Assembly (NCBI GenBank): GCA_945895375.1
Contig: CAMDEE010000005.1
Coordinates: 62,001-126,000, forward strand
Reading direction: 5' to 3'
Source: Auritidibacter sp. Marseille-P8566
GTDB taxonomy: Bacteria > Actinomycetota > Actinomycetes > Actinomycetales > Microbacteriaceae
DNA length: 64,000 bases
Part shown: positions 11,285-60,964 of the stretch, one piece after another
How the letters are laid out: each line of letters begins with the position of its first letter
Position numbering within the stretch: position 1 is the stretch's first letter
Position numbers and translations under genes: made by a program
Notes under the pieces: model-generated
The model's input: the letters and a program-made list of their open reading frames with translations, nothing else
What the model was told of the DNA's origin: nothing
Databases searched by the model: none

Positions 11285-11298
11285 AAAGCCTTTGCTTT

Positions 11299-11957: not shown

Positions 11958-11993
11958 GCAAATAGTGTAGCACTTTTTGCAAAAGTGCAACAC
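11958..11993 (-). promoter_or_regulatory. Toxin-antitoxin promoter overlapped by a 29-bp palindromic operator
   Basis: At 11965-11993 the arms GTGTaGCACTTTT and AAAAGTGCaACAC flank TGC, 13-bp arms with one mismatch; the inner 8 bp (GCACTTTT/AAAAGTGC, 11970-11988) are perfect. On the minus strand TTGCAC (11990-11985) and TACACT (11969-11964) lie within it as -35 and -10. Their spacing is a short 15 bases. The -10 ends six bases before the antitoxin ATG, so the message would be leaderless. This layout suits autorepression by the toxin-antitoxin complex. Confidence 0.75.
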
Positions 11994-12065
11994 TTTTCAC
12001 ACAGCAAAAACAATATCGAGACGCTGTTAGCGTTGGGCTTACACAAAAGAGCGAGAGGCTTCATC

Positions 12066-12452
12066 ATGGATTTCGGAACGGCTATAAAGAGTTTTTGGTC
12101 AAACTACACAAACTTCAAAGGTCGTGCTCGTAGGTCTGAGTACTGGTATGTTCAACTATTCCTAGTCATCACAAATCTGATAGCTGCTCCTGTTGATCTA
12201 GCTCTCATGAACTGGGACACTGATCGCTTTATCGCTAATGGCGGCGGAGGCATCATTGGATTGATCTGGATACTTGCAACCATAGTTCCAGCGATTGCTC
12301 TTTTGATTAGACGTCTTCATGACACCAACCGCAGTGGTTGGTGGGCCCTTATTGGATTGGTTCCTCTGATAGGTGCAGTTGTTTTGATTGTCTTCACAGT
12401 TGAGGATTCAGCTGATGGACAGAACATCTACGGATCATCTCCTAAAGAATAG
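12066..12452 (+). CDS. DUF805 family membrane protein
   Basis: A 128-residue protein with the DUF805 pattern: an N-terminal amphipathic stretch (AIKSFWSNYTNFKGRARRSEYW), then four membrane helices. The conserved loop IRRLHDTNRSGWWALIGLVP sits between the third and fourth. The ATG at 12066 gives the standard family N-terminus and has GAGAGG upstream; an in-frame ATG at 11904 would run through the toxin-antitoxin promoter. Function unknown. Confidence 0.88.
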   Translation: MDFGTAIKSFWSNYTNFKGRARRSEYWYVQLFLVITNLIAAPVDLALMNWDTDRFIANGGGGIIGLIWILATIVPAIALLIRRLHDTNRSGWWALIGLVPLIGAVVLIVFTVEDSADGQNIYGSSPKE

Positions 12453-45070: not shown

Positions 45071-45075
45071 GCCTA

Positions 45076-47262: not shown

Positions 47263-47511
47263 CTAGTTACCCGTTGATTGAGCAAGAATCAGCTTTGCTC
47301 GATGCAGTCTTGTTACTAGTTCTGCCTGTCTGATACCAAGGTCTTGAGAGACATCGCTCATGGTTCTTTTCTCAATGAGCAAACCGTGAGCCACATGCTT
47401 CAAAGCTTCAGGTAGGGCACTTACTGCAGCCTCTAGTTCTTTAGGGGATAGGTGGCTAAGGTCTGGTTCATTCTCTTCAAAGGTGACATCTAGATCGAAT
47501 TCGTTTGACAT
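47263..47511 (-). CDS. Small HTH protein resembling sigma-70 region 4
   Basis: An 82-residue acidic protein whose C-terminal half (EALKHVAHGLLIEKRTMSDV, SQDLGIRQAELVTRLHRAK) resembles the helix-turn-helix of sigma-70 region 4 or a LuxR-type domain. It lacks sigma region 2. It is the last gene of the leftward catabolic operon, nine bases after the ferredoxin-reductase gene, so it may regulate the cluster or be a small accessory protein. The fold is inferred from pattern only. Confidence 0.68.
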   Translation of the reverse strand: MSNEFDLDVTFEENEPDLSHLSPKELEAAVSALPEALKHVAHGLLIEKRTMSDVSQDLGIRQAELVTRLHRAKLILAQSTGN

Positions 47512-47520
47512 GGTTTTCTC

Positions 47521-48720
47521 CTATATGAACTTAGCTCGGTAACTTTGCACAACACTTCTCATTCCAATTCCACAAACCCCAACCAACTGCTCGCCTCTGT
47601 GATATTCAAATACACATTCACCAGAAACATCGCCAGCTACCAAGGTGACTTTATCCGCTAATGACAACGAACCAAAAGCCAGTAGGTGAATGTCGTACTG
47701 ATCACTCCAGAACGATGGGACTGGCTTGAACTGGTCTTGGACTAATGATTCAAACTTCTCATCCTGGTTTAGTTGAGCAGCTATCACAGCAGCTGCTCGT
47801 TTAGCAGTTTCAGTTGGGATGTTCCAGTGTTCAACTCTTCTTGGAACATCATCAAAGATAGGGTTGGTAAATCTGGCAACATCGCCGATTGCATAGACGT
47901 TAGGAGCAACGTTGCCTGATGTGCTGATAGCTCTCATAGCGCTATCAACCAAGACCCCATCGGTTAGATCGATGTTGGTGCTTTCCAGCCACTCAGTATT
48001 TGAATGAGAGCCAATTGCTTCAATCAAAACATCGCACTTTATGGCGCTGCCGTCATCAATTTGAACTTCACTGATTTTTGTCTCTCCAGAAACGCCTGTC
48101 ACCGAACGGTTTAGAAGAAAGCGAACACCTTCTGCTTCATGCCTTAGCTGCATTTGCCTGGCTAATTCAGTTCCTAGGGGTCTAAGCATTGGGTGTGCTG
48201 AGTTATGAACCACGGTCACATCGCAACCCAACTTGGCTGCTGTTGCTGCTACCTCACAGCCAATGAAGCCTCCACCAACAATCACAACATCAGCACCAGG
48301 TGTTAGTTCTGCTCTTAGGTTGATGGCATCATCCAAGGTTCTTAGGGCATGCCTACCGGCTAGATCACCGTTAGCAAGGTTTAGTCTTTTTGGTCTTAGT
48401 CCAGTTGCAATCACTAGGGCAGAGTATGGATGCACCATACCTGAACTGTCTGCAACAGTGTTGTGTTCTTGATCGACTGAAACTGCTCTAGTTCCTAAGA
48501 CCCAGTTCACATCAGCTGTTGCTGCTCTTTCCTCAAAAGCAACCGCTTCGTGAGTAACTTCGTTGGCTAGAACTTCTTTAGATAGGGGAGGTCTGTTGTA
48601 TGGCTTGTGAGCTTCCTCACCAATAACGGTGATAGCTCCAAGGTAACCAAATCGTCGTAGTGATTCAGCTGTGCGCAATCCACCCATGGACGCACCAACT
48701 ATTACTACGGGATGGTTCAT
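47521..48720 (-). CDS. FAD-dependent ferredoxin reductase
   Basis: A 399-residue reductase of the rhodocoxin/putidaredoxin-reductase type. The FAD motif is VIVGASMGGLRTAESLRRFG (residues 6-25) and the NAD(P) motif is VVIVGGGFIGCEVAATAAKL (about 145-165). VYAIGDVARF completes the FAD site and a C-terminal dimerisation domain follows. It passes electrons from NAD(P)H to the ferredoxin encoded just upstream, and on to an oxygenase, most likely the P450 at 53598-54845. Confidence 0.92.
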   Translation of the reverse strand: MNHPVVIVGASMGGLRTAESLRRFGYLGAITVIGEEAHKPYNRPPLSKEVLANEVTHEAVAFEERAATADVNWVLGTRAVSVDQEHNTVADSSGMVHPYSALVIATGLRPKRLNLANGDLAGRHALRTLDDAINLRAELTPGADVVIVGGGFIGCEVAATAAKLGCDVTVVHNSAHPMLRPLGTELARQMQLRHEAEGVRFLLNRSVTGVSGETKISEVQIDDGSAIKCDVLIEAIGSHSNTEWLESTNIDLTDGVLVDSAMRAISTSGNVAPNVYAIGDVARFTNPIFDDVPRRVEHWNIPTETAKRAAAVIAAQLNQDEKFESLVQDQFKPVPSFWSDQYDIHLLAFGSLSLADKVTLVAGDVSGECVFEYHRGEQLVGVCGIGMRSVVQSYRAKFI

Positions 48721-48723
48721 GTT

Positions 48724-48915
48724 CTATTCGACGATACGGATTGCTTGCATTGGGCAGACATCAATAGCTGCCTCAATGTTTGCTCGCTCTGAATCATCAG
48801 CCTCTGCTGTGTATTCGAGCTTGTCATCTGAGTTCAAACGAAAGATGTCTGGTGCTTCAAAAACACACTGTCCGTAGTGCTGGCACTTAGTCATATCAAC
48901 TTCGACTTTAATCAT
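48724..48915 (-). CDS. 3Fe-4S-type ferredoxin
   Basis: A 63-residue ferredoxin. Three cluster cysteines are visible: C11, C17 and C54 (followed by P). The middle position, normally a fourth cysteine, is Y14, so a 3Fe-4S cluster is expected. Such ferredoxins are the usual redox partners of actinobacterial P450s. The gene is three bases from the reductase gene. Confidence 0.93.
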   Translation of the reverse strand: MIKVEVDMTKCQHYGQCVFEAPDIFRLNSDDKLEYTAEADDSERANIEAAIDVCPMQAIRIVE

Positions 48916-48918
48916 TTG

Positions 48919-49797
48919 CTATTCCTTCTCTACAACTGTTGACGGGTAAAGATCTTTAGATGGAGTTCTGATTCCTCTAAACTCCCAGTCGCCACCAAGG
49001 GCTGTTGAAACTACCTCTTCTGAAGAAGTTGGTTGAGCACCAACATCGGTACGAATACCGGTTGGGCCTTCAACGATGTGGTTGGTAAGTTTTCCAAGTC
49101 CTTCAACTTCAACCTCAACAACATCGCCTGGTTCAACAGGTCTGGAGTTAGCTGGAGTTCCAGAGAACAGCATATCGCCTGGTACCAATGTGATTGTTCT
49201 TGCGATATCTGCAACTAGGTAGTGCATATCCCATTCCATGTTGTCGGTGTTATCTTCTTGCTTCACAACTCCATTGACATAGGTTCTGATGAACTTATTT
49301 CTAAAGTCCCAGTCAGTAACCAAACCAGGACCTACTGGAGCTAGAGTGTCTGAACCTTTGACTCGAAGCATTGAGCCAGCATCAGTATCTCTGAAGTCAT
49401 GAAGACCAAAGTCATTACCGATGGTGTATCCAGCGATGTATTCGCCTGCTTCTTCAGGAGAGATGTTTCGACAGGTCTTACCAATAACAATTACAATCTC
49501 ACCCTCATAGTTCAACCACTTCAAACCAGCAGGTCTAACTACAGCACCGTTGTGTGAGTTTAGAGCGGTGATTGGCTTGTGGAAGTAAGTAGGAGCTGGT
49601 GGCAACTTGGTCATGAACTCTTGAGTTCTAGAGTCGTAGTTCAAGTGCACAGCGATGATCTTGGTTGGTTCAACAGGAGGTAAGTGAATAGCATCCTTGA
49701 TAGCAACAACACGGCCATCACCTGCAACTAGATTCTCACCGTTGCGCTCGACTAGAGTCGGGTATCCCTCAATCAGGATTCTTCTAAATTCAGTCAC
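48919..49797 (-). CDS. Fumarylacetoacetate hydrolase family protein (HpaG/HpcE-like)
   Basis: A 292-residue enzyme of the FAH superfamily. Metal-binding and active-site motifs are YEGEIVIVIGK and GYTIGNDFGLHDFRD; LFSGTPANSRPVEPGDVVEVE is the C-terminal signature. Relatives include HpaG decarboxylase/isomerase and 2-hydroxyhepta-2,4-diene-dioate isomerase, acting on ring-cleavage products, which suits the context. The start is GTG 49797, overlapping the dioxygenase stop by eight bases. A longer frame (from 49887) reads through that gene. Confidence 0.87.
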   Translation of the reverse strand: MTEFRRILIEGYPTLVERNGENLVAGDGRVVAIKDAIHLPPVEPTKIIAVHLNYDSRTQEFMTKLPPAPTYFHKPITALNSHNGAVVRPAGLKWLNYEGEIVIVIGKTCRNISPEEAGEYIAGYTIGNDFGLHDFRDTDAGSMLRVKGSDTLAPVGPGLVTDWDFRNKFIRTYVNGVVKQEDNTDNMEWDMHYLVADIARTITLVPGDMLFSGTPANSRPVEPGDVVEVEVEGLGKLTNHIVEGPTGIRTDVGAQPTSSEEVVSTALGGDWEFRGIRTPSKDLYPSTVVEKE

Positions 49798-50701
49798 GAG
49801 AAAGTACCAAGTCCTTAGCCTTAGGGAAGCCACCTTCTGGGCGAGGGAAGTAAACGTGAACTTGACCGGTTCCGATTGAGTTCTCATACTCTGAATACAA
49901 AACGCCCTTAGCGGTGTTTAGTTCTTCGCCGGTAGCACCAGCCATGGCTAGCCAGTGGTAGAAGTTAGCTTCAGGCTTTACCTTTGAGAACTCAGGCATT
50001 GTTTCTAGAATCTTGCCGTGCTCGCCATTCTTCATCCATTCAAGTCTTTCGTAATCCATCTCACGAGCAAGATCTGAGTAGATGTGCTTCGGATCTGATG
50101 CCTCATGCTTACGAAGATCACGGAGCTTATAGAAAGTGTGTGAAAGAGCACCAGAGGCAAGTAGTAATACTTTTCTATCACTATCTCTAATTGCTTCGCC
50201 AAGAGCACGGCCTGCTCTTAGGAAATCTTCGTGAGTTCCTGTCTGGCAAACAGACATTGAAATCCACTTCTTGTCATCTAGGCCTCTACCTAGGTAGTGC
50301 CAAAGGTTTACTGTTGCGTAGAAGATAGGCAGGTGTGGATCTGCAATAGGTGTTACCCAAGTACCGTTCTTCTCTGCATAGTTCGCTACTGAGTTAGCAA
50401 GCTCAGGATCACCCTTCATTGCATAAGGAATCTGAGACATGCCTCTAGGTAGTTCTTCAGAAGTAAACAGACCTGATCGCTCTGCTGCTGAGGTAATAAC
50501 AAATTCAACGGTTGTTGCCCAGTGGCTGTCTAGAACGACTACTGTGTCATAGTCCAGAGTCTCAAAAACATCTTTACGAAGTTTCTTTAGTCCTGGAACT
50601 AGAGAAAGCTCTTTACCCTCATTGAGGTCGTATCGAACTGCCTCAGGCAACATGATTGTTGGTACGTGAGCTAAGAGTGCTGCTCCTACTACTTCTCCCA
50701 T
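49790..50701 (-). CDS. Extradiol ring-cleavage dioxygenase, class III (HpaD-like)
   Basis: A 303-residue member of the LigB superfamily, similar to 3,4-dihydroxyphenylacetate 2,3-dioxygenase. Iron-ligand and active-site segments are LLAHVPTIML, VVLDSHWATTVEFV, and LLASGALSHTFYKLRDL; the end GTGQVHVYFPRPEG matches HpaD. It should open a catechol ring next to the hydroxyls using Fe(II) and O2. The natural catechol here is unknown. The gene is in the middle of the six-gene operon. Confidence 0.88.
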   Translation of the reverse strand: MGEVVGAALLAHVPTIMLPEAVRYDLNEGKELSLVPGLKKLRKDVFETLDYDTVVVLDSHWATTVEFVITSAAERSGLFTSEELPRGMSQIPYAMKGDPELANSVANYAEKNGTWVTPIADPHLPIFYATVNLWHYLGRGLDDKKWISMSVCQTGTHEDFLRAGRALGEAIRDSDRKVLLLASGALSHTFYKLRDLRKHEASDPKHIYSDLAREMDYERLEWMKNGEHGKILETMPEFSKVKPEANFYHWLAMAGATGEELNTAKGVLYSEYENSIGTGQVHVYFPRPEGGFPKAKDLVLSRD

Positions 50702-50704
50702 GAT

Positions 50705-52168
50705 CTATTCCTTCCATCCATTAGGTGATACCACTGTGTTCTTTATATCTGCATAGAAATCAAATGACCAGTTACCGCCCTCACGGCCAATACCTGACTT
50801 CTTAGATCCCCCGAAAGGCGCTCTCAGGTCTCTAACAAAGAAGCAGTTGACCCAGATAGTTCCAGCCACAAGTTCTTTAGCAACCCGGTCTGCTCTTGCT
50901 CTATTACCTGAAACAAGGATTGCGGCAAGACCGAACTCTGTGCCATTAGCCATAGCAATAGCCCCCTCGTCAGTCTTGAAGGTCTGCATGCATAGAACTG
51001 GACCAAATACCTCAGAGGTAACAATCTCTGATTTAGGGTCCGGGTTCATAACCAGGGTAGGTCTAAAGTAAAGCCCACCTAGGTCGCTGTTGGGTTCGCC
51101 ACCCATAACGATGTTGGCACCAGTCTCTTTAGCTCTGTCAACAAAGCCCTTTACTCTTTCGAAGTGAACCTGATGAATCTGAGGACCAATCTGAGTTGCT
51201 TCATCTCTTGGGTCACCCTGAATAATCTGTGAAGCCTTTTCTTTGAACTTCAAAGCAAACTCTTCAGCGATGTTCTCGTGAACAAGGATTCTTGTTCCAG
51301 ATAAACAGACCTGACCAGCATTGTCATACTGCTCTACTGCAAGTTCTACTGCTAAATCAACATTTGCATCTTCTAGAACAACACAAGGAGACTTACCACC
51401 TAGCTCAAGGCTTACTGGAGTTAGGTTATCTGCAGCTGCTCTAGCAATAACCTTTGCTGTTGGCACAGAACCAGTAAATGAAATACGTGAGATACCAGGG
51501 TGAGCAACCAGTGCTGCTCCTGCTTCTTTGCCAAAGCCTTGAACAACATTGAAGACTCCATCAGGTATTCCAGCTTTCTTTGTTAGATCAGCAAAGAATG
51601 ATGCACTCAATGGAGTCCACTCAGCAGGCTTGAGGATTACTGTGTCACCAGAAGCTAAAGCAGGACCTATCTTCCAGGTAGCAAGCATTAGTGGAGCATT
51701 CCAAGGAGTAATTAGAGCAGCAACACCTGATGGATCCCAAGAGATCTTGTTTGTGTGTCCTCTAGTTTCAAAGTCTGGGTGATGCAAATCATTGATTGCC
51801 CATTCAGCAAAGAATCTAATGTTCATTGCAACTCTTGGCATAACTCCACGTCTGTGTGATCTCAATAGAGATCCGTTATCCATGGTTTCTAGTTGGGCAA
51901 GAGTTTCAATGTTCTCTTCAACTAGAGAGGCAAGTCTCAAAAGAATCTCACCACGACCTTTAGGTCCAAGAGCTGCCCAAGCAGGGAATGCTTTTCTAGC
52001 TGCTTCAACAGCCATATCAACCTCAAGGGATGTTCCTCTAGAGATCTCACCTAGGAATGATCCATCAACAGGGGAGGTGTTAGTAAAGGTCTCAGCTGAG
52101 GCGACTCTTTGCCCACCAATGTAATGACGGGTATCTATCTTGGTTCCAACAACTTCTATGGTGTTCAA
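50705..52168 (-). CDS. Aldehyde dehydrogenase (HpaE/PuuC-like)
   Basis: A 487-residue NAD(P)-dependent aldehyde dehydrogenase. The proton-transfer glutamate is E255 (LELGGKSP) and the catalytic cysteine is C288 (NAGQVCLSGTR); the substrate-pocket NAPLML region is present. In ring-cleavage operons such enzymes oxidise 2-hydroxymuconic-semialdehyde products. It might alternatively act on gamma-glutamyl-aminoaldehydes, as PuuC does. It starts at TTG 52168 and leads the operon; three bases separate it from the dioxygenase gene. Confidence 0.88.
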   Translation of the reverse strand: MNTIEVVGTKIDTRHYIGGQRVASAETFTNTSPVDGSFLGEISRGTSLEVDMAVEAARKAFPAWAALGPKGRGEILLRLASLVEENIETLAQLETMDNGSLLRSHRRGVMPRVAMNIRFFAEWAINDLHHPDFETRGHTNKISWDPSGVAALITPWNAPLMLATWKIGPALASGDTVILKPAEWTPLSASFFADLTKKAGIPDGVFNVVQGFGKEAGAALVAHPGISRISFTGSVPTAKVIARAAADNLTPVSLELGGKSPCVVLEDANVDLAVELAVEQYDNAGQVCLSGTRILVHENIAEEFALKFKEKASQIIQGDPRDEATQIGPQIHQVHFERVKGFVDRAKETGANIVMGGEPNSDLGGLYFRPTLVMNPDPKSEIVTSEVFGPVLCMQTFKTDEGAIAMANGTEFGLAAILVSGNRARADRVAKELVAGTIWVNCFFVRDLRAPFGGSKKSGIGREGGNWSFDFYADIKNTVVSPNGWKE

Positions 52169-52207
52169 GCCTCTTGTCCTTACCTTTAGCCCTATTCATT
52201 AGGATAC

Positions 52208-52269
52208 TAACGATTAAGATTAGGGCATACTTAAGGGGTATAAACCCTATGTTTCATAACGATTCGTAT
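52208..52269. promoter_or_regulatory. Divergent control region of the ring-cleavage operon and PuuD-like gene
   Basis: TAACGATTAA (52208-52217), ATTAGGGCATA (52219-52229) and TAACGATTCG (52257-52266) lie between the two divergent genes. ATTAGGGCATA recurs at 53502-53512 between marR and the P450 gene; GATTCGTAT (52261-52269) recurs at 53570-53578; TAACGATTAA recurs at 57864-57873. These shared words suggest common regulation. The responsible protein is not known. Confidence 0.5.
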
Positions 52270-52282
52270 AAGGAGCAGGTCC

Positions 52283-52972
52283 ATGGCTAGACGTCCCAGG
52301 ATTGCGATAGTCGGTAGGTTCACCGAGCAGGCAACTGCCATTAGAAGCCTTGGTGTTGTCTCCTCAAGAAGACTCTTGGAATCAGTATGGGCAGCTGGGG
52401 GAGAACCAGTAACGTTCCTGCCAGTTGAGAACCCTAACTGGGCGGAAAGACTTGTTGGCATCGATGGAGTTCTAATCCCAGGTGGTGGAGATGTGAACCC
52501 TAAGTGGTACGGCGAAGAGCCAAACACAGAAGAGCTCTATGGCGTTGATGATCTGCAAGATGAGAATGACTTCTCAATCGCCAAGCATGCCTTTGATAAT
52601 GCACTACCTGTCCTAGCCATTTGCCGAGGCTTCCAGTTAGTAAACGTTTTGAAGGGTGGAAGCCTTGTTCAAGACATGGATCAACATCACCGAAACCATA
52701 TGCACACCATCACCATTGACAAAGATGCTGAAGGACTGGGACTGTCAAAGCCAGTATTAGAAAGCTCATGCTTCCACCACCAAGCCATCAAAGAACTAGG
52801 TAGTGGTTTAGAAGTTCTAGCCAGAGCAGAAGAAGGGCATGTCGAAGCCTTCAAGATTGAAGCTAAAGCCTGGTCTTACGGAGTGCAATGGCATCCAGAG
52901 GATAACTACAAAGAAAACCCTCAGCAGTTGGAACTGTTTACAAAGTTTGTTTCAGTAGCGGCTAAGAATTAG
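52283..52972 (+). CDS. Gamma-glutamyl-amide hydrolase, PuuD-like class I amidotransferase
   Basis: A 229-residue peptidase C26-type protein. The catalytic triad is visible: C114 in LAICRGFQLVN and H204 with E206 in VQWHPEDN; the GGGDVNPKWYGEEP loop is typical. PuuD removes glutamate from gamma-glutamyl-GABA; the same chemistry on a different gamma-glutamyl amine is likely here. It is divergent from the ring-cleavage operon and overlaps the convergent marR gene by 11 bases. A strong AAGGAG precedes the ATG. Confidence 0.88.
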   Translation: MARRPRIAIVGRFTEQATAIRSLGVVSSRRLLESVWAAGGEPVTFLPVENPNWAERLVGIDGVLIPGGGDVNPKWYGEEPNTEELYGVDDLQDENDFSIAKHAFDNALPVLAICRGFQLVNVLKGGSLVQDMDQHHRNHMHTITIDKDAEGLGLSKPVLESSCFHHQAIKELGSGLEVLARAEEGHVEAFKIEAKAWSYGVQWHPEDNYKENPQQLELFTKFVSVAAKN

Positions 52973-53462
52973 TTTCAGCAAACTTAGTTATTGCTCTTAG
53001 CTGATCGGCTAGTTGACCTTGCTTTGATTGGGCAACTACGTTCGCTACTGCTGTTTCTTGTTTGTTGAAAGCAGGGAATAGGGTGTCCATTAGTTTTCTA
53101 CCCTTGGTAGTCAATTGAACGATTACTAATCTGCCGTCATCTTTGCTTTTGGTTCTTGTGATTAGAGAGCGCTTCTCAAGGGTTGAAAGAACACCTGTAA
53201 GGGTGGCTTTAGAAAAGCCTCCTTCTTCTGCAATCTGTCTAGTCTCAATAGGTTCCCAGATCCAGGTAACCCAAAGAACAACAAAGGCTGTCCAAGATAG
53301 GTCTTGCTTGGCAAGAACTGTTCTTTCTAGGTGGTTTCTAACTGAGTTGGCTGCTCTAAAGAGGTTTGAGGTTACGGCCATGGCTTCGAAGTTGATGTTC
53401 TTGTGAACAAGCTTCTGATTGACCTGACGCTCTGTTTCGGCAAGGGTGTGTGGTCCAGCCAT
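52962..53462 (-). CDS. MarR family transcriptional regulator
   Basis: A 166-residue winged-helix protein of the MarR type. The recognition region is AEEGGFSKATLTGVLSTLEK and the wing is SKDDGRLVIVQLTTKGR. AGGAGGT is a perfect ribosome binding site. MarR proteins commonly control aromatic catabolism (HpaR is a known example). The divergent position beside the P450 gene, and the shared 11-bp word in its promoter and that of the ring-cleavage operon, suggest it as regulator of the cluster. Confidence 0.9.
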   Translation of the reverse strand: MAGPHTLAETERQVNQKLVHKNINFEAMAVTSNLFRAANSVRNHLERTVLAKQDLSWTAFVVLWVTWIWEPIETRQIAEEGGFSKATLTGVLSTLEKRSLITRTKSKDDGRLVIVQLTTKGRKLMDTLFPAFNKQETAVANVVAQSKQGQLADQLRAITKFAETNS

Positions 53463-53501
53463 TGCTACCTCCTAAGAATGTGCTTCTATTCTCCTCTAAT
53501 C

Positions 53502-53567
53502 ATTAGGGCATAAATAACTTTTTAGGCACAAAGGCGTTTCTTACTTGTTTGGGTGTGTAATCTAAAA
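53502..53567. promoter_or_regulatory. Divergent marR-P450 control region
   Basis: ATTAGGGCATA (53502-53512) is identical to the word at 52219-52229 and adjoins CTAAT in the palindrome CTAATCATTAG (53496-53506). On the plus strand the -10-like TGTAAT (53556-53561) ends six bases before an ATG at 53568. A -35 box is not obvious, which would fit a regulated promoter. Confidence 0.5.
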
Positions 53568-53597
53568 ATGATTCGTATCCAAACAATCGGAGTGACC

Positions 53598-54845
53598 ATG
53601 ACACAGTTGTCAGAGCTAACCCTTGCAGACCTAGACCTATTCGATGGCGGTGCTCCATGGCACGTCTTCGACAAGCTACGTGCTGAAGCCCCTATTCACT
53701 GGGATGCTGAGGAGAAGCCAAACAGCGGTTTCTGGTCTGTTACTCGATACCAGGACATTGTTAAGGTTCTTCGTGACCCAGACACTTTCACTTCAACCCA
53801 CTTCACCAACTTAGAAGAAGTTGATGCTGAGCAGGAAGAGGCTAGAAGATCTCTTCTTGAAACAGATGGTGCTCGACACCGTGCTCTTAGAAGATTGCTT
53901 CAAGGTGAGTTCACTCCTCAGGCTGTCTCAGGTTATGAGACATTCCTAAGAGGACTTACTGCGACTACTTTGGACAATGCTTTCGCTAAAGGCAGCTTTG
54001 ACTTCGTTGATGAAGTTGCTGCTGATTTCCCTATTCGTGTTCTAGCTCGAATGCTAGATGTTCCAGATCATGACACTGACAAGTTGATTGAGTGGGGTAA
54101 CCGCATGATTGGTAACACCGACCCTGAGCATGCAGATATCTTGCTAGAAGATCCTGAGAGCGAAAAGTATCGTCTGGTTCCATTCAGATCTCCAGCAGCT
54201 CTTGAAGTATTTGAGTATGGGCAGAACCTTGCTAATCAGCGCAGAGGTAAAGATGGTAAAGACTTGGTCTCAACTTTGATAAACCAGGTGCCATCTGATG
54301 GCATTCCTTTGTCAGAGCGAGACTTCAACACTTACTTCCTGCTTCTAGTTGTTGCTGGTAACGAGACCACTCGTCACACCATCTCGCACACCATGAACTA
54401 CCTAATTGAGAACCCAGAGCAGATGGCAATGCTGCAGGAAGATCCTTCACTTATCCCTTGGGCAGTTGAAGAGTTCATTAGATTAGCCTCTCCGGTTTAT
54501 CACTTCAGAAGAACTGCAACTAAGGATGTTGAGTTCCAAGGAACTCTAATCAAGAAGGGGCAGAAGGTTGTTCCTTGGTTCGCTTCAGGCAACAGAGACT
54601 CTGCTGTGTTCAATGACCCATACAAGATGGATGTGACGAGAAACCCTAACGAGCACATGGCCTTTGGTCGAGGCGGACCTCACATGTGTCTAGGTAACTC
54701 ACTAGCTCGACTAGAGGTTCGCATCATGTTTGAAGATCTTCTCTCACGTGTTGACAAGGTTGAGCGATTAGGGGAAATAGATCACCTACGTTCAAACTTC
54801 GTGAACGGAATAAAGAGATTCCCTGTGAAGGTAACCCTTAGATAA
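53598..54845 (+). CDS. Cytochrome P450
   Basis: A 415-residue bacterial P450. The I-helix oxygen-activation motif is AGNETTRHT (residues 253-261) and the haem-binding loop is FGRGGPHMCLGN with C364 as ligand. The K-helix E-x-x-R is EEFIRLASPV. The AGNETT and Phe-Gly-x-Gly-Gly-Pro-His motifs resemble the CYP124/125/142 group rather than the CYP151 amine oxidases, but family assignment needs alignment. Electrons should come from the ferredoxin and reductase of the leftward operon. The ATG at 53598 has GGAG five bases upstream; ATG 53568 is a leaderless alternative. It overlaps the GATase gene by eight bases at the 3' end. Confidence 0.93.
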   Translation: MTQLSELTLADLDLFDGGAPWHVFDKLRAEAPIHWDAEEKPNSGFWSVTRYQDIVKVLRDPDTFTSTHFTNLEEVDAEQEEARRSLLETDGARHRALRRLLQGEFTPQAVSGYETFLRGLTATTLDNAFAKGSFDFVDEVAADFPIRVLARMLDVPDHDTDKLIEWGNRMIGNTDPEHADILLEDPESEKYRLVPFRSPAALEVFEYGQNLANQRRGKDGKDLVSTLINQVPSDGIPLSERDFNTYFLLLVVAGNETTRHTISHTMNYLIENPEQMAMLQEDPSLIPWAVEEFIRLASPVYHFRRTATKDVEFQGTLIKKGQKVVPWFASGNRDSAVFNDPYKMDVTRNPNEHMAFGRGGPHMCLGNSLARLEVRIMFEDLLSRVDKVERLGEIDHLRSNFVNGIKRFPVKVTLR

Positions 54846-55545
54846 GTTTCGCTATATCTTTCAGATAAGCGTCAACTAGAGCAAAGGTTCTTTGCTTTGA
54901 TACTTCATCTTCGGCTATGGTCTGATCCATCATGATTTGAGCATCTTGCCCATCTTCGCCAACGCTTCGTAGACCTCCCCAGTCAAGCCAGCCTTTGAGT
55001 ACTGCCGCGTTTAGTTCAGGGTGAAATTGAACTGCTAAAGATCTGTCATAGATGAATGCTTGGGAAGCAATAGGGTTTCTAGCAATCTCAACTGCACCTG
55101 GTGGGACTACCCAGCGGTCATAATGGAATTGGAACCAAGGGCCGTTACTAACTAAGTCTTTTCGATCTGACCAGATGTTGGTCCAACCAATTTCACCCTT
55201 AGGGCCAGGAGCCACTGAACCACCTAGTGCTCTAGCCATTAGCTGGCCACCAAAGCAGATTCCAAGAACAGGCTTGTGTGCGGCCATGGCATTTCTTACC
55301 CAGTCAAGTTCTGGTTGTAACCAGTTACCAATGCAGGCATCGTCCCAAGCACCCCATGGAGCACCTAGTGGAACAAGCAGGTCATAGTCATTGAAGTCTG
55401 GGAATTCAAAAGCAACATTAGGGGTTTCAAATGAAGCTTCAGGCACTACAAGAACCTCAGTCATCTCAAAGCCATGGCGGGCTAGGGCTTCGCCCACCCA
55501 TCCGGTTGGGCTCACATGGTCATGTTGAATAAATAGCGCTTTCAT
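54838..55545 (-). CDS. Type 1 glutamine amidotransferase (GMP-synthase-like)
   Basis: A 235-residue free-standing class I amidotransferase. The nucleophile is C97 in VLGICFGGQLMARALGG, and the His-Glu pair is H175 and E177 in AVQFHPELN. Proteins of this type sit beside glutamine-synthetase-like ligases, such as TdnT/AtdA2 in aniline clusters, where they hydrolyse gamma-glutamyl amides. It is divergent from the ligase gene at 55650 and is the second gamma-glutamyl hydrolase candidate in the cluster. Confidence 0.87.
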   Translation of the reverse strand: MKALFIQHDHVSPTGWVGEALARHGFEMTEVLVVPEASFETPNVAFEFPDFNDYDLLVPLGAPWGAWDDACIGNWLQPELDWVRNAMAAHKPVLGICFGGQLMARALGGSVAPGPKGEIGWTNIWSDRKDLVSNGPWFQFHYDRWVVPPGAVEIARNPIASQAFIYDRSLAVQFHPELNAAVLKGWLDWGGLRSVGEDGQDAQIMMDQTIAEDEVSKQRTFALVDAYLKDIAKLI

Positions 55546-55610
55546 AATTCCTTCATAACTTTTCGGTTTCCACGGCTATTTCTAACGCTACTAGGAAGTA
55601 GCATTCAAAT

Positions 55611-55630
55611 ATCGTTTGAACCCGAATGAA
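55611..55630. promoter_or_regulatory. 20-bp operator-like element before the glutamine-synthetase-like gene
   Basis: The element matches 57943-57962 before the permease at 15 of 20 positions (TCGTTT, ACCCGAA and GA are common). It lies 20 bases before the ATG and overlaps an inverted repeat TTCAAA-TATCG-TTTGAA (55604-55620). A regulator binding site is inferred. Confidence 0.6.
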
Positions 55631-55649
55631 ATGTAACAAAGGAGTTGCA

Positions 55650-56999
55650 ATGAGCACCAACCTCACAGCCCTAAGAGAGAAGCTTCAAGAACAGGGCATT
55701 GATGTCCTAAGGATTCTGTATTCAGACGTTCTTGGAATTACAAGATCTAAGGACTTGCTAGTTAGCCAACTAGAGAAAGCTGCTGGTCATGGACCTGCTT
55801 TCTGCCAAGGTGTTTGGGTTACCAACACTCAAGGTGGAGTGTTGGATGCAGAAGGAATCGCAGGAGATGGTCTTCAAGACCTCGTTACACAGTTGGACCC
55901 TGACACCATTCACGCAATGCCATGGGAACCGGGTGTAGCTTATGCAATTGGTGATGCTCTCAACCCAGACATGTCTCCTAACCTTTTCTCTCCTAGAACA
56001 GTTCTTAGGAAAGTTATTGCCGAGTATGAGAAGTTAGGCCTAGTTCCAGTAGTTGGCCCTGAGCTTGAGTTTTATATTGCAGACCGAGTCGAAGGCGGCG
56101 GGTTCAAGAGATCACTAGAGAGAACTGGTCGTGTTTACACAACTGGTGCATTAGTTGATCCAAACGGAACTTTCTTACATTTGATTCGCATGCTTGATCA
56201 ACTAAACATTGGAGTATTCGCAGGTAACCACGAATTCTCACCTGGCCAATATGAAATCAACCTATGGCATTCAGAAGCTATGGACGCTGCTGATAGAACA
56301 TTCCTATTCAAAACTTCTATCAAAGACATTGTTCACCGTGAAGGTCAGCATGCAACATTTGTTGGTAAGCCTTGGAGCGATGAGGGAGGTTCTGGTTTCC
56401 ACCTACACTTCTCAGTTACCGATAAGAACGGCAAGAACCTGATGCATGAGGGAACCGAGCTTAGCGAAGTTGCTAAGCAGATGATCGCAGGTCTCTGTGA
56501 GAACGCTCATGCTCTAACAGCTTTCACTAACCCAACAGTCAATGCGTTCAAGAGATTGGGCCCTGACACCCTTGCCCCTTACAGAGCTAACTGGGGATAC
56601 GACAACAGAAGCACCATGGTTCGCATTCCACCAGAGCGTGGTTCAGGAACTCGTCTAGAGGTTCGTGTTGGTGATGGTGCTGCTAACCCGTATTTGGTTA
56701 TCGCCGGTATCTTGGCTGCTGCTCTTGATGGCATTGTTAGAAAGCTTGATGTTCCAGATGCTGCTGAAGGTATGGCTTATGACAATGAAGCTGCTCCAGT
56801 ACTACCTGCAACATTCACTGAAGCGCTAGATGCACTTGAGGCTAACGAGCGTATGCGTGAGCACATGTCAACAGGTCTTATTGGAATCTTCTTAGTTATG
56901 AAGCGCGATGAGATCGAAAGATATGAAGCGGCCGTTCCAGACCCATCAACTAGAGATGTAACCGACTGGGAGATTCAGGAATATCTAGAGGATTACTAA
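55650..56999 (+). CDS. Glutamine-synthetase-like gamma-glutamyl-amine ligase
   Basis: A 449-residue member of the glutamine synthetase superfamily. The N-terminal beta-grasp region has VLRILYSDVLGITRSKDL. The catalytic domain has GPELEFYIADR, NHEFSPGQYEINL, GSGFHLHFSV and NPTVNAFKRLGPDTLAPYRA. Features such as length and gene context favour the PuuA/GlnT/TdnQ-type ligases over housekeeping GlnA. It should join the gamma-carboxyl of glutamate to an amine using ATP. ATG 55650 has GGAG five bases upstream. It is convergent with the ADC-like gene. Confidence 0.88.
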   Translation: MSTNLTALREKLQEQGIDVLRILYSDVLGITRSKDLLVSQLEKAAGHGPAFCQGVWVTNTQGGVLDAEGIAGDGLQDLVTQLDPDTIHAMPWEPGVAYAIGDALNPDMSPNLFSPRTVLRKVIAEYEKLGLVPVVGPELEFYIADRVEGGGFKRSLERTGRVYTTGALVDPNGTFLHLIRMLDQLNIGVFAGNHEFSPGQYEINLWHSEAMDAADRTFLFKTSIKDIVHREGQHATFVGKPWSDEGGSGFHLHFSVTDKNGKNLMHEGTELSEVAKQMIAGLCENAHALTAFTNPTVNAFKRLGPDTLAPYRANWGYDNRSTMVRIPPERGSGTRLEVRVGDGAANPYLVIAGILAAALDGIVRKLDVPDAAEGMAYDNEAAPVLPATFTEALDALEANERMREHMSTGLIGIFLVMKRDEIERYEAAVPDPSTRDVTDWEIQEYLEDY

Positions 57000-57808
57000 A
57001 TCGAAGGATTTGAGTTATCTGCAAGCAGTGTTCCACCGTTGAAGGTAACTCCAACTTCGCGGTAGTAACCACCGAGTATTTCCTTCACAGGAAGTATTGA
57101 AGCTAGTTCATCCCACTGAGAATCTGAAAGTGTAAGTTCAGCATCTCCTACCCAAGGTGTCCCTAGATCTGCATCAACTCCACCCATGGTGATTAGTTGA
57201 TCCATTGAGTTACCTAGACCTGGAGTAATTGATGGCATCCATCTTGAGTGAATCATCGGGTGACCGTTAACAAAACCATTTGAGTCAGCAGGCTTGCTTA
57301 GAGTCACAACTGCGGAAGCAAGTCTGTGATCGTAGGCAGCAAGTGAGGCCCCAAGCTTTGCTCCTGCTTCAAGTCTTGGAGTTGCTTTACCGTGGTTGAA
57401 GATTCTTGTTACTGCAACATTGCCAAGCTTCTTTGGATAACCCTGGAACCAGCCACGAGCAATAGCGAAGTCTTTGGTAACCCAGATGGCTACACAACGT
57501 GAGTAATTCTTACCGTAGTACTTGCATCTCACAACAACGAATGCTTCTAGGTATTGTGAGCGAACTGGATCAAGTAGTTCTTCTCCACCAGTTGAACAGG
57601 ACTGCCAGTCAGCCCAGATAAGAGCAACCGCACCTGGGTGCTCATCAGCTAGTTCTAGCTCTGGCGGCAAGATTGCCCTGACATTGGCTTCGTCGGTTAG
57701 ATACTCAACAGTTAGTAGAGTCCCTGAGTAAAACCAAGGCATGTTAGGAATGATTGCTGATTTGCCAGTAGGGGTCTTTGGGGCCATAAATCCGTGTAAT
57801 TCGCTCAT
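56996..57808 (-). CDS. Acetoacetate-decarboxylase-like protein
   Basis: A 270-residue protein of the acetoacetate decarboxylase superfamily. The Schiff-base lysine region reads ARGWFQGYPKKLG, with the paired lysines of the family. The usual Gly-Arg-Glu before it is Ala-Arg-Gly here, so the reaction may not be acetoacetate decarboxylation; some relatives act as aldolase-dehydratases. ATG 57808 has AGGAAG upstream. In this cluster it may handle a ketoacid from ring cleavage. It overlaps the ligase gene by four bases. Confidence 0.8.
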   Translation of the reverse strand: MSELHGFMAPKTPTGKSAIIPNMPWFYSGTLLTVEYLTDEANVRAILPPELELADEHPGAVALIWADWQSCSTGGEELLDPVRSQYLEAFVVVRCKYYGKNYSRCVAIWVTKDFAIARGWFQGYPKKLGNVAVTRIFNHGKATPRLEAGAKLGASLAAYDHRLASAVVTLSKPADSNGFVNGHPMIHSRWMPSITPGLGNSMDQLITMGGVDADLGTPWVGDAELTLSDSQWDELASILPVKEILGGYYREVGVTFNGGTLLADNSNPSI

Positions 57809-57827
57809 GCTTCCTAGATTACCTAAC

Positions 57828-57843
57828 CATTCGTGTCCGAATG
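57828..57843. promoter_or_regulatory. Palindrome upstream of the ADC-like gene
   Basis: CATTCG-TGTC-CGAATG is a perfect 6-bp inverted repeat 20 bases before the ADC-like start. The half-site sequence CGAATG is also found in the operator-like element before the ligase gene. Confidence 0.45.
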
Positions 57844-57942
57844 ACTCTTTATAACGGAACAGATAACGATTAAACAACCATCAGGTAACGGAATACAGAA
57901 AATGCCTCTTTAAGGCCCATAGTTGCACCAAAGTATTAGCAG

Positions 57943-57962
57943 GTCGTTTATACCCGAACGAC
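57943..57962. promoter_or_regulatory. 20-bp palindromic operator-like element before the permease gene
   Basis: GTCGTT-8-AACGAC is a perfect inverted repeat 28 bases before the permease ATG. Its sequence is closely matched at 55611-55630 upstream of the ligase gene. The shared element links import with gamma-glutamylation under one regulator. Confidence 0.65.
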
Positions 57963-57989
57963 TTTTGTCGACTCGATGAGGAGCAGTAA

Positions 57990-59471
57990 ATGTCAATGGA
58001 AACAAAAGATAATTCCCTTCGGAAAAACCGACTGGGTGTCTTAGGTATCGTATTTTTTGTGGTGGCAGCATCCGCCCCACTAGTTGGTATGACTGGCGCT
58101 GTGCCAGTAGCAATTCTTGCCGGTAACGGAGCAGCTGCTCCTGGCGCATATTTACTTGTTGGTTTAGTTCTTATCTTGTTCAGCGTTGGTTTCACAGCCA
58201 TGTCAAGCAAGGTAACTAACGCAGGTGCTTTCTTTGCATACGTAGGTAGAGGTCTCGGTAGAAATGCTGGAACCGGATCTGCGTTTGTTTCGATTGTTGC
58301 TTACGTAACTATCCAGCTAGCAATCTACGGATTCTTTGGTGGCATCATGGCTGGCCAAGGAGCTGCACTACTAGGCATTGATTTGCCTTGGTTTGTTTGG
58401 GCAGCTATTGCTTGGGTGCTAGTAACAGCACTTTCTCTTCTGAGCATTGATGTTGGTGCAAAGGTTCTAGGAACTCTAATGGTTCTAGAAGTTCTTTCAC
58501 TACTTATTGCAGGTATTGCAATTCTTATCAACAACGCAGGCTCAATGAACTTCGTTGCTTCATTCTCTCCAGAGAACATTTTCGCTGGTGGCTTTGTTGG
58601 TGGTGCTGGTATCGCTCTTGCGTTTGCTCTTGCATCATTCATTGGTTTTGAGGCAACAGCTATTTATGGTGAAGAGTCAATCGATCCAAAGAGAACTGTT
58701 CCTAGAGCCACATACTGGGCTGTTGGTCTAATCACCACTGTTTTCGCAATCGTTTCATTCGCAATGGTGACCGGTCTTGGTTCAGCAACTGTTGTCGACC
58801 GAGTTGCAGAGATCTCTGAAGGTGGAGCAAACCCAGCTGCGGTTCTGTTCTTCCTAGTAAATGAGAACGTTGGCCCATGGCTAGTAACAATCATGGAGTG
58901 GCTAGTTGTTTCTTCATTGTTTGCAGGTCTACTTGCATTCCAGAACGCTAACGCTCGTTACGTCTTTGCTCTAGGTCGCGCAGGTGTATTGCCTGCATCT
59001 CTAGGAAAGACAAATGCATCAGGTGCTCCTATCGGTGGTGTGATCGTAACTTCAGTTCTTGCTGCAGTTGTTATCCTGCTGTTCGTGATTCAGGGACTAG
59101 ATCCAATCCTGAACCTGTTCTTCTGGATGAGCGCTATTACAGCAATTGCAATCATGGTCGTTGAGATCTTGGTTAGCATCGCAGTAATTCGTTACTTCAT
59201 GCAGAACCCAGGCACTCACATCTTCAAGGCAGTTATCGCTCCAGCTCTTTCAGCTCTACTACTAAGCGTTGGTCTATACCTATTGATGTCACGCTTCAAC
59301 CTGCTATCAGGTCTAGCGCCATCACCTGAAGAGTCAGGCAATGCATGGTCATTGACTACCCTTGGTTGGACCCTTGTCTTACTACCATTTGCAGCTCTCG
59401 TTGTTGGTTTCATCTGGGGACTAATCAACAAGAAAGAAAACGCAAAGATGAGTGCAGACATTCTGTCCTAA
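57990..59471 (+). CDS. APC family amine/amino acid permease
   Basis: A 493-residue protein with twelve predicted membrane helices. The APC signature is at the start (LGVLGIVFFVVAASAPLVG) and ASFIGFEATAIYGEES lies in helix 6. This group includes PuuP-like and other amine importers. It is divergent from the ADC-like gene, shares an operator-like element with the ligase and is closed by a strong terminator. It probably brings in the amine that the ligase modifies. GAGGAG lies before the ATG. Confidence 0.9.
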   Translation: MSMETKDNSLRKNRLGVLGIVFFVVAASAPLVGMTGAVPVAILAGNGAAAPGAYLLVGLVLILFSVGFTAMSSKVTNAGAFFAYVGRGLGRNAGTGSAFVSIVAYVTIQLAIYGFFGGIMAGQGAALLGIDLPWFVWAAIAWVLVTALSLLSIDVGAKVLGTLMVLEVLSLLIAGIAILINNAGSMNFVASFSPENIFAGGFVGGAGIALAFALASFIGFEATAIYGEESIDPKRTVPRATYWAVGLITTVFAIVSFAMVTGLGSATVVDRVAEISEGGANPAAVLFFLVNENVGPWLVTIMEWLVVSSLFAGLLAFQNANARYVFALGRAGVLPASLGKTNASGAPIGGVIVTSVLAAVVILLFVIQGLDPILNLFFWMSAITAIAIMVVEILVSIAVIRYFMQNPGTHIFKAVIAPALSALLLSVGLYLLMSRFNLLSGLAPSPEESGNAWSLTTLGWTLVLLPFAALVVGFIWGLINKKENAKMSADILS

Positions 59472-59563: not shown

Positions 59564-60964
59564 ATGTCAGCAATGAGGCTAGAACATGACCTGCTCGGTG
59601 ATTACGAGGTACCTGCAAGCGCGTATTGGGGGGTGCACACAGCCAGAGCGGCGGAGAACTTCCCGATTTCAGGAGTTCCTATTGGCCATTACAGATCTCT
59701 CATCAGAGCGTTAGCTTTAGTAAAAGAGTCCTGTGCCAAAGCCAACTTAGAAGTTGGCGAATTAGATGAAAAAGTAGCCAGCGCGATAATCGCTGCATGC
59801 CATGAGGTTGAAGCTGGCAAGTTTGATAAAGAATTCATCGTTGATGCAATCCAGGGTGGTGCTGGTACTAGCACCAACATGAATGCTAACGAGGTCATCG
59901 CTAACCGTGCACTAGAACTAGCTGGCTTTGAAAAAGGTGACTACGACAAGATTCATCCTTTGAATGATGTGAACATGTCACAGTCAACGAATGATGTTTA
60001 TCCAACTGCTCTAAAAGTTGCTCTGATTCTTGAAATCAGAGAACTAATCAAGGCTCTGGAATATCTACGTTCTAAATACACAGACAAAGCAATTGAGTTC
60101 AAAGACCTAATCAAGATGGGACGCACGCAGTTACAAGATGCAGTTCCTATGACCCTGGGCCAAGAGTTTTCAACCTTTGCAAGGATGACTCAAGAAGATG
60201 AACAGCGTCTACTGGAACTCATTCCTCACCTAAGTGAAATCAACCTTGGTGGAACTGCTATTGGAACAGGCCTTAACGCCCCTAAGGGATATGCAGAAGC
60301 TGCTTGTAAGCATCTAAGTGAATTAGCCGGTTGGCAGTTCGTTGTTGCTGAAGACATGGTTGAAGCAACTCAAGACGTTGGTGTATTCGTTCTAGTGTCC
60401 GGTGTTCTAAAAAGAGTTGCAGTGAAACTATCAAAGACTGCTAATGATTTACGTTTACTATCATCGGGACCTAGAGCTGGTTTTGGTGAAATCAATCTGC
60501 CTGCTCGTCAGGCAGGATCATCAATTATGCCGGGTAAGGTCAACCCAGTTATTCCTGAGGTTGTCAACCAGATTGCCTTCACAGTTATTGGTAATGACAT
60601 GACAGTGACCATGGCTTGTGAGGGTGGGCAATTGCAGCTCAATGCATTTGAACCAATCATTACTAGAGCACTAATGATGAGCATCATTTATCTTCGTCAA
60701 GGTTGTTACACACTTGCTGATAGATGCGTTGATGGCATAACTGCTAATGCTGATCGCATGAGACACGACGTTGAAAGATCAATTGGAACGGTAACTGCTC
60801 TTTCACCGATGCTTGGCTATGAGAATGCAACACTCGTTGCTCAAACTGCTTTAGCTGAGAATTCAACCGTCAAAGAAGTTGTCTTGAGACTAGGTCTTAT
60901 GACTGAAACTGAGTTCAATGAGATTCTTGGTGATGTTGACAAGCTGGTAAGGCCAAACGGCTAA
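59564..60964 (+). CDS. aspA: Aspartate ammonia-lyase
   Basis: A 466-residue enzyme of the fumarase/aspartase superfamily. The signature is GSSIMPGKVNPVIPEVVNQ, the serine loop region that closes over the substrate. The substrate-binding stretches GAGTSTNMNANEVIANRA and NDVNMSQSTNDVYPT match aspartase. It converts aspartate to fumarate and ammonia. It follows the permease terminator, so it is a separate transcript. ATG 59573 is an alternative start. Confidence 0.92.
   Translation: MSAMRLEHDLLGDYEVPASAYWGVHTARAAENFPISGVPIGHYRSLIRALALVKESCAKANLEVGELDEKVASAIIAACHEVEAGKFDKEFIVDAIQGGAGTSTNMNANEVIANRALELAGFEKGDYDKIHPLNDVNMSQSTNDVYPTALKVALILEIRELIKALEYLRSKYTDKAIEFKDLIKMGRTQLQDAVPMTLGQEFSTFARMTQEDEQRLLELIPHLSEINLGGTAIGTGLNAPKGYAEAACKHLSELAGWQFVVAEDMVEATQDVGVFVLVSGVLKRVAVKLSKTANDLRLLSSGPRAGFGEINLPARQAGSSIMPGKVNPVIPEVVNQIAFTVIGNDMTVTMACEGGQLQLNAFEPIITRALMMSIIYLRQGCYTLADRCVDGITANADRMRHDVERSIGTVTALSPMLGYENATLVAQTALAENSTVKEVVLRLGLMTETEFNEILGDVDKLVRPNG

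Follow-up and report, generated by a model that had tools for sequence, protein, structure and literature searches.

Which compound does a gene cluster break down that joins a glutamine synthetase (GS)-like ligase, a cytochrome P450 and an operon for aromatic ring cleavage, and do these parts act together? The question is raised by the region at 47.2–59.5 kb of a stretch of 64,000 nucleotides (the window) on contig CAMDEE010000005.1 of Auritidibacter sp. Marseille-P8566, whose genome has 1.43 Mb and is 99.8% complete. A preliminary description had read the region as one amine-to-catechol system combining gamma-glutamylation, a P450 chain and extradiol ring cleavage, a view to which linkage in distant hosts and a promoter palindrome now lend support. 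The cluster is one conserved system and not a set of chance neighbours. On balance, we favour the reading that it breaks down a phenolic arylethylamine derived by decarboxylation, most likely tyramine, in a glutamate-tagged form; all chemical steps of this reading are ones that we infer. More tentatively, we suggest that the aromatic amine may stay gamma-glutamylated through hydroxylation, extradiol cleavage, oxidation, decarboxylation and aldol cleavage, that the route may join putrescine degradation at gamma-glutamyl-aminobutyraldehyde, and that a hydratase-aldolase of the acetoacetate decarboxylase (ADC) fold may replace HpaH and HpaI. The pieces come from known families; the whole is a probable new pathway, and we name its substrate with moderate confidence.

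Gene content and proposed route

All genes listed in the preliminary description were found as intact open reading frames (ORFs) of the families it had named; the family scan covered 20 ORFs of the window, and the ferredoxin of 63 amino acids was judged by its sequence alone. They are arranged as one minus-strand operon and four divergent pairs (aldehyde dehydrogenase (ALDH) and PuuD-like, MarR and P450, GAT2 and GS-like, ADC-like and APC). Likely starts, chosen from ribosome-binding sites and from gene lengths in relatives, lie slightly inside the mechanical ORFs.

The proposed route would begin with an APC-family permease (57990–59471, plus strand; PF13520) importing either the amine or an amino acid that a pyridoxal phosphate (PLP) enzyme would then decarboxylate. 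The GS-like ligase (55650–56999, plus strand, likely ATG at 55650; PF00120, 306.7 bits) would convert tyramine to gamma-glutamyl-tyramine. It matches type III glutamate-ammonia ligase (TIGR03105, 265.7 bits), GlnA (264.2 bits) and gamma-glutamylputrescine synthetase (NF045547, 252.3 bits against a cut-off of 650), in each case below cut-off, and from its PF00120 match and conserved catalytic residues would belong to the glutamyl organic amide synthetases (GoaS). Ring hydroxylation to gamma-glutamyl-dopamine would be carried out by the P450 (53598–54845, plus strand; PF00067; listed from 53553 with a likely ATG at 53598) with the ferredoxin (48724–48915, minus strand) and a FAD/NAD ferredoxin reductase (47521–48720, minus strand; PF07992, PF14759) as its proposed redox partners. 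The cysteine spacing of the ferredoxin, C-x5-C...CP, we take to be of the 3Fe-4S type. Tyramine fits a single P450 because one oxygenation suffices, and an amine oxidase is not needed.

The class III extradiol dioxygenase, which is HpaD-like (LigB; 49790–50701, minus strand; PF02900; TIGR02298, 134.8 bits, cut-off 315.95), would open the ring of gamma-glutamyl-dopamine next to the side chain, and an HpaE-like semialdehyde dehydrogenase of the ALDH family (50705–52168, minus strand; TIGR02299, 514.5 bits, cut-off 638.35) would oxidise the aldehyde made by ring cleavage. Decarboxylation and isomerisation would fall to an HpaG-C-like enzyme of the FAH fold (48919–49797, minus strand; TIGR02303, 199.8 bits, cut-off 276.4; also PRK12764, 216.6 bits), for which GTG at 49797 is a likelier start than the listed 49887. 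The MppR-like ADC-like enzyme (56996–57808, minus strand, likely start ATG 57808; PF06314, 193.6 bits; TIGR04460, 174.6 bits, cut-off 380) would then hydrate the 2-oxo-enoate and split it by retro-aldol cleavage into pyruvate and gamma-glutamyl-4-aminobutanal. A PuuC-like or aminobutyraldehyde dehydrogenase would oxidise the latter to the gamma-glutamyl derivative of gamma-aminobutyrate (GABA), from which a PuuD-like class I glutamine amidotransferase (52283–52972, plus strand; PF07722; gamma-Glu-GABA hydrolase family NF008471, 73.5 bits, cut-off 266), or possibly the second class I amidotransferase, GAT2 (54838–55545, minus strand; NF005458, 110 bits, cut-off 250), would free GABA and give back glutamate.

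The four divergent promoters would be repressed by the MarR protein (52962–53462, minus strand), which is nearest to HpaR (TIGR02337, 59.4 bits, cut-off 121.2). The final gene of the operon encodes a helix-turn-helix (HTH) protein of 82 amino acids resembling sigma region 4 (47263–47511, minus strand; 26.8 bits against a cut-off of 204); similar short proteins adjoin the APC gene in Microcella-type loci, for example L028, L042 and L043. With the HpaE, HpaD_Fe, HpaG-C and Puu-type matches all below curated cut-offs, these proteins are to be regarded as homologues and not as equivalogs.

The chemistry of such a route can be followed from the homoprotocatechuate (Hpa) pathway, in which a catechol with a CH2-R side chain yields pyruvate and OHC-CH2-CH2-R, the latter being succinate semialdehyde at R = COOH. 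With R = CH2-NH-(gamma-glutamyl), the same chemistry leads to gamma-glutamyl-4-aminobutanal, an intermediate of the putrescine (Puu) pathway. Glutamylation in the Puu pathway is usually explained by its blocking the cyclisation of the free amine, and here the glutamyl tag would prevent cyclisation of the amine with the carbonyls that ring fission creates.

Linkage in other genomes

When GTDB species genomes were scanned with the dioxygenase, 90 relatives were confirmed, and the best 80, all distinct in DNA, were analysed; the closest named loci, with 94–98% dioxygenase identity, belong to a Rhodoluna sp. and to Micrococcales metagenome-assembled genomes (MAGs). The preliminary description had proposed looking for the same gene set elsewhere, and the set does recur: at 59 of the 80 loci the P450 and GS-like genes are both in the fetched stretch (the remaining 21 stretches measure 3.4–15.5 kb), and homologues are not confined to separate, unlinked loci. 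Present at all or nearly all of these 59 are the ALDH (59), FAH (59), MarR (58) and ADC-like (57) genes, with GAT2 (47), APC (45), ferredoxin (45), reductase (44), PuuD-like (33) and HTH (21) genes being less frequent. At least one of the two putative hydrolases, PuuD-like or GAT2, is encoded at 56 of the 59 loci. The ADC-like gene is missing from L052 and L053, the latter stretch stopping inside the GS gene.

Because many of these loci are kin, the stronger argument for linkage is the reshuffled gene order in distant hosts, namely Nocardioides (L083), Wenjunlia (L084), Rhodospirillaceae and Dongia (L085 and L086) and Acidimicrobiaceae-type MAGs (L089, L091–L095 and L097; record titles vary). 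The set is also found on plasmids of Streptomyces canus, Embleya and Novosphingobium. A plasmid stretch of Streptomyces lunaelactis holds it without the P450, and it is present in an Acidobacteria MAG (L088), the P450 being absent from its 10 kb. The linkage is thus shared by Microbacteriaceae, Nocardioides, Streptomycetaceae (Wenjunlia, Streptomyces), Acidimicrobiaceae and Alphaproteobacteria. The dioxygenase occurs in 17 of 150 sampled genomes of the family and in 36 of 396 of the phylum, the window's own genome counted in both. Twenty of the 36 phylum loci, hand-picked to take in the most divergent, hold a looser set (ALDH 17, P450 15, GS 14, ADC and FAH 11 each), with losses that are due partly to stretch ends and partly to missing genes and that are strongest in L161–L163 (43–48% identity).

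We also inspected residues of presumed catalytic role in the cluster proteins and counted them in aligned relatives after leaving out partial sequences, low-identity matches and sequences with stops. The Cys/His/Glu triad is kept in the PuuD-like protein (44/44) and GAT2 (49/49), as are the heme Cys of the P450 (58/58), the metal site E, E, D of the FAH enzyme (69/69) and the Cys and Glu of the ALDH (78/78); in the GS-like ligase, 12 of the 17 inspected positions are invariant (64/64).

A palindrome shared by the cluster promoters

Comparison of the MarR–P450 and ALDH upstream regions of the relatives revealed a palindrome resembling CATTCGNNNNCGAATG. Scored at 12 positions with a threshold of at least 11 in 75 loci, after exclusion of the five closest to the window, it has 54 sites in 31 kb of divergent promoters of the cluster vs 43 sites in 1146 kb elsewhere. 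This corresponds to 1.73 vs 0.038 sites per kb, or an approximately 46-fold higher density, an enrichment that is partly in-sample, the consensus being taken from the relatives' own promoters, and that comes from related loci that are not independent. The sites fall into the P450–MarR (14), PuuD–ALDH (14), MarR-to-ALDH (17) and APC–ADC (8) regions, with a single one between GS and GAT2, leaving the palindrome of the GS promoter poorly supported in relatives.

The best site of the whole window, CATTCGTGTCCGAATG (57828–57843, 12/12), lies between the ADC-like and APC genes, and the second best, a candidate operator (55613–55628, 11/12), in the divergent region of GAT2 and GS. These are the 2 window sites with at least 11 matches, a number close to the shuffled mean of 2.2, and both are in divergent promoters of the cluster. 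A further candidate operator in the MarR–P450 region (53570–53585) reaches 10/12, a score equalled by at least 11 other window sites, and a weak one in the ALDH–PuuD region (52197–52212) reaches 9/12. By these sites, the cluster looks co-regulated. An 11-mer, ATTAGGGCATA, shared by two intergenic regions with 2 exact matches in the window, was dropped in favour of the palindrome because 17 of 100 shuffles give at least 2 matches with up to one mismatch.

Ring cleavage and the aldolase step

The closest solved chain to the HpaD-like enzyme is the 3,4-dihydroxyphenylacetate 2,3-dioxygenase 8iq8 (82.7 bits). In 99 aligned members, His60, His188 and Glu244 are invariant and His12 is found in 98, with one gap. 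Column 31 holds Glu or Asp in all 99 (4 being repeats) and in 20/20 of the deeper members vs Arg in 9/9 annotated HpaDs that were fetched, 8 of which adjoin other hpa genes. Arg31 of HpaD would suit a carboxylate side chain, its contact with the substrate being our guess. A homologue intermediate to HpaD was noticed in L125 (Sphingobium TomTYG64 plasmid, 3567–12410), where annotated dehydrogenases are present too; it perhaps acts on another side chain. A single-sequence structure prediction of the dioxygenase had a mean predicted local distance difference test score of 31.3 and was not used.

Genes for HpaF, HpaH and HpaI, which the preliminary description had not recognised in the region, have no profile match anywhere in the window's own genome. 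HpaF and HpaH each gave 0/9 genomes, and HpaI gave 0/9 over cut-off, its one sub-cut-off match being in G092, a genome without the dioxygenase. All three profiles were over cut-off in a positive control, a plasmid of Pseudomonas that carries annotated hpa genes. Since HpaH and HpaI were not found, a C–C cleaving step is needed and the ADC-like gene is present at 57 of the 59 loci, its product is the candidate for this step, and the gene is best read as part of the ring-cleavage branch, where it would replace HpaH and HpaI. The lysine of its PKK motif is kept in 43/43 aligned sequences and aligns with that of four solved ADC-like sequences, MppR and three others; we take 4zbo and 6eej to be Sbi00515 and 5upb to be Swit_4259, and the lysine presumably forms the Schiff base. 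With PF06314 and this lysine, the protein would fall among the aldolases of the ADC-like superfamily.

A comparable role has been proposed for Saccharolobus growing on phenol: two ADC-like genes were induced 77- and 82-fold and were assigned, on their resemblance to MppR, to the aldolase step of catechol meta-cleavage (PMC7820114). MppR and the Saccharolobus proteins Sso1221 and Sso1222 share the family and the lysine with the cluster enzyme, which differs in its predicted substrate, a C7 chain bearing an amide. The idea of an ADC-fold aldolase therefore has a precedent in print (PMC7820114); its proposed use on a glutamylated chain is new.

Neighbouring genes as clues to the substrate

Group II PLP decarboxylases are encoded within the cluster or next to it at 17 of the 80 loci, 1 of 4 plasmid loci and 9 of the 20 deeper loci. 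Type 2 is encoded directly downstream of the P450 at 12 loci (Salinibacterium, Frigoribacterium, Rhodoglobus, Lacisediminihabitans and PHSC20C1). Type 1 immediately follows a reductase, HTH or aminobutyraldehyde dehydrogenase gene in L051, L056, L062, L063 and L081 and is in the stretch of 9/20 deeper loci, two of them at only 32–35% identity, and type 3 follows the FAH gene in S. lunaelactis. Since the three types share 26–36% identity with one another (the ORFs of L105 and L112, called in a wrong frame, gave no match in this comparison), the association with the cluster seems to have evolved repeatedly. Of 17 genomes that encode the dioxygenase, 9 have a PF00282 gene no farther than 15 kb from it, vs 0.52 expected at random, kinship and contig breaks being ignored. 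As a separate observation, an annotated hpa locus on a Phaeobacter porticola plasmid (L122, 1–8846) includes a PLP decarboxylase and a succinate-semialdehyde dehydrogenase and is perhaps an amino-acid-fed hpa route.

A second ALDH with PuuC as its best match adjoins the PuuD-like gene in S. canus (568 bits), S. lunaelactis (554), Embleya (551) and Wenjunlia (547). Second ALDHs are also found beside the APC gene at five distinct Microbacteriaceae loci, L041 (partial), L073 (same genome as L135), L133, L134 (its PuuC-like ALDH being outside the profile scan) and L136; that of G059 is close to where its contig ends, and the APC region there is outside the fetched sequence. The full-length PuuC-like neighbours score 514–568 bits against the NF007352 cut-off of 850, and there is none in the window. 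An aminobutyraldehyde dehydrogenase gene follows the HTH gene in L044, L051 and L056, the last being over cut-off (626.9 vs 615). Left out of these counts are two more second ALDHs, an ambiguous one in L029 and a methylmalonate-semialdehyde dehydrogenase in L062. The genome of the window itself encodes an aminobutyraldehyde dehydrogenase and a GABA transaminase, both over cut-off, on another contig; as markers the two were dropped, being present in all sampled genomes (19/19 and 9/9). In some relatives, then, the decarboxylase and PuuC-like or aminobutyraldehyde dehydrogenase neighbours point to an arylethylamine, and the dehydrogenases are what one would expect for the C4 amino-aldehyde arising from a C2 side chain. 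Two loci carry, a few kb from the cluster, a separate Puu-like set of GS-like, PuuD-like and second ALDH genes (L137, 2630–6061; L138, 14558–17989), the GS-like gene of L137 having no NCBIfam match at E 1e-90.

Comparison with known systems

The adjacent trio of homologous dioxygenase, semialdehyde dehydrogenase and FAH genes, together with the MarR regulator, ties the cluster to the Hpa/Hpc pathway, from which it differs by the missing HpaF, HpaH and HpaI matches, the ADC-like enzyme, the acidic residue in place of Arg and the presence of the ligase and the P450. With the Puu pathway it shares the GS-like ligase, the PuuD-like hydrolase, in some relatives the PuuC-like dehydrogenase, and the proposed common intermediate gamma-glutamyl-aminobutyraldehyde. 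Here, however, the aldehyde would arise by a ring-cleavage aldolase, whereas the Puu pathway relies on oxidation of a diamine by PuuB; a PuuB-type oxidase was not reported among the 20 scanned ORFs of the window, a genome-wide search not having been made. Among the comparisons offered in the preliminary description, those with aniline and morpholine degradation seem less apt than one with Hpa and Puu together, as the Rieske family is not among the 20 scanned ORFs and the ring-cleavage genes belong to the core.

The aniline and 1-naphthylamine systems (TdnQ/T, AtdA1/A2, NpaA1/A2) resemble the proposed route in placing glutamylation ahead of ring oxygenation, which is due to a Rieske dioxygenase there and would be due to a P450 here. 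For 1-naphthylamine, glutamylation comes first and the Rieske oxygenase then forms untagged 1,2-dihydroxynaphthalene (PMC11335346); in our proposal, the tag would persist. The MorA and PipA clusters for morpholine and piperidine likewise bring together P450, ferredoxin, reductase and GS-like genes, and a ring-cleavage module is not mentioned in the portion of the source consulted (PMC9477822). Among the records listed from the open PMC literature on tyramine, dopamine or glutamylation, no title or abstract opening describes the route, subscription papers being mostly outside this scope.

Weighing the proposed pathway against alternatives

Several observations weigh against the glutamate-tagged tyramine route. 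A gamma-glutamyl hydrolase was not seen near L062, L085 and L086 among the 59 loci or on the Novosphingobium plasmid, and L052 has no ADC-like gene at the expected place, in a stretch extending 3.6 kb past GS. The ADC-like and FAH genes are each present in 11 of the 20 deeper loci. An enzyme for the HpaF step was not found by profile in the nine genomes. As many as 63 of the 80 loci are without a decarboxylase and 72 without a second ALDH, many of the stretches being short, and in the genome of the window itself the decarboxylase genes are on contigs other than that of the cluster. The PDB neighbours of the linked decarboxylases are mixed and include DOPA, tryptophan, glutamate, diaminobutyrate and cysteine sulfinate decarboxylases, and both markers of the GABA route also occur in two genomes of the same genus without the dioxygenase. 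Finally, the low-scoring structure prediction leaves residue 31 unplaced, and the Sphingobium homologue in L125 (37% identity) has Asp31 beside annotated HpaH- and HpaI-like genes, so that the acidic residue alone is not proof of the proposed substrate.

Among the alternatives, the best placed, though unlikely, is removal of the tag after hydroxylation, with the free catecholamine either oxidised to homoprotocatechuate or cleaved untagged in an otherwise ordinary Hpa branch where the ADC-like enzyme substitutes for HpaH and HpaI. Indeed, the dioxygenase and the ALDH are nearest to Hpa families, the FAH enzyme scores well with HpaG-C and the MarR protein is nearest to HpaR. However, all members stay below the Hpa cut-offs, the Arg of HpaD is replaced by an acidic residue, and PuuC-like and PuuD-like genes adjoin the cluster in some relatives; moreover, no amine oxidase family turned up in the 20 scanned ORFs, although a genome-wide search was not made. 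Distinctly less probable is another catechol-yielding amine, such as a methoxylated or N-methylated phenethylamine, dopamine or 4-hydroxybenzylamine, on which the P450 would act as a demethylase or N-dealkylase. The P450 may belong to any of several substrate classes, its nearest solved chains being named CYP125, CYP124, CYP268 and similar, but the three kinds of decarboxylase that accompany the cluster in relatives speak for an amine formed by decarboxylation, and the PuuC-like and aminobutyraldehyde dehydrogenases suit a C2 side chain better than a C1 side chain.

We regard as slightly less probable again a ring-amine (aniline or aminophenol) route in the manner of Tdn, Atd and Npa, with the P450 taking over from the Rieske oxygenase and the PuuD-like protein or GAT2 keeping the anilide low. 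To our knowledge, a single P450 oxygenation cannot make a catechol from an anilide; with no Rieske family among the scanned ORFs, such a route would also leave the decarboxylase and PuuC-like neighbours unexplained, even though pairs of GS-like and amidotransferase-like genes belong to those systems (PMC11335346). Two unrelated neighbours, namely an alkylamine or N-heterocycle P450–ligase set as in morpholine use and a ring-cleavage operon, are very improbable, for although P450, ferredoxin reductase and GS genes adjoin around PipA-like P450s (PMC9477822), the linkage in our cluster survives different gene orders and distant taxa, and the palindrome is common to its promoters.

Genes around the cluster

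A further ALDH, nearest to succinate-semialdehyde dehydrogenase and possibly serving a downstream step, starts at 63012 on the plus strand and runs off the window at 64000; its profile score comes from L132 (8513–9982; TIGR01780, 550.2 bits, cut-off 646.35). An aspartate ammonia-lyase-like gene (59564–60964) adjoins the APC gene, a position kept in L020, L061, L064 and L065. At 43499–45987 of the window, genes for a TAP-like alpha/beta hydrolase and an MPAB/Lcp-domain protein are found, both of which lie downstream of the cluster in L020, L022, L046, L061, L064 and L065. An ORF that by its sequence looks like a carbon-nitrogen hydrolase, a possible amidase, occurs at 11 loci (L029, L068–L072, L075–L078 and L096), a median of 3.7 kb from the dioxygenase start. 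The recurrent families of neighbouring ORFs (at least 5 loci; 2168 ORFs) are, among those listed, lineage-specific for the most part and situated on the operon's far side, and the clusters of the Acidimicrobiaceae-type loci L089 and L092 are followed by genes for the glycine cleavage protein GcvP.

Discussion

Dioxygenases of this family are annotated in relatives as, for example, 3,4-dihydroxyphenylacetate 2,3-dioxygenase or catechol 1,2-dioxygenase, and for the recurrent neighbourhood that carries them under these names the proposed pathway offers a reading. If it holds, actinobacteria with small genomes and a probably freshwater habitat would use biogenic phenolic amines as sources of carbon and nitrogen. 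It would also give MppR-like enzymes of the ADC fold a physiological role in ring-cleavage pathways, and protection by glutamylation would extend from alkylamines to an entire ring-cleavage sequence.

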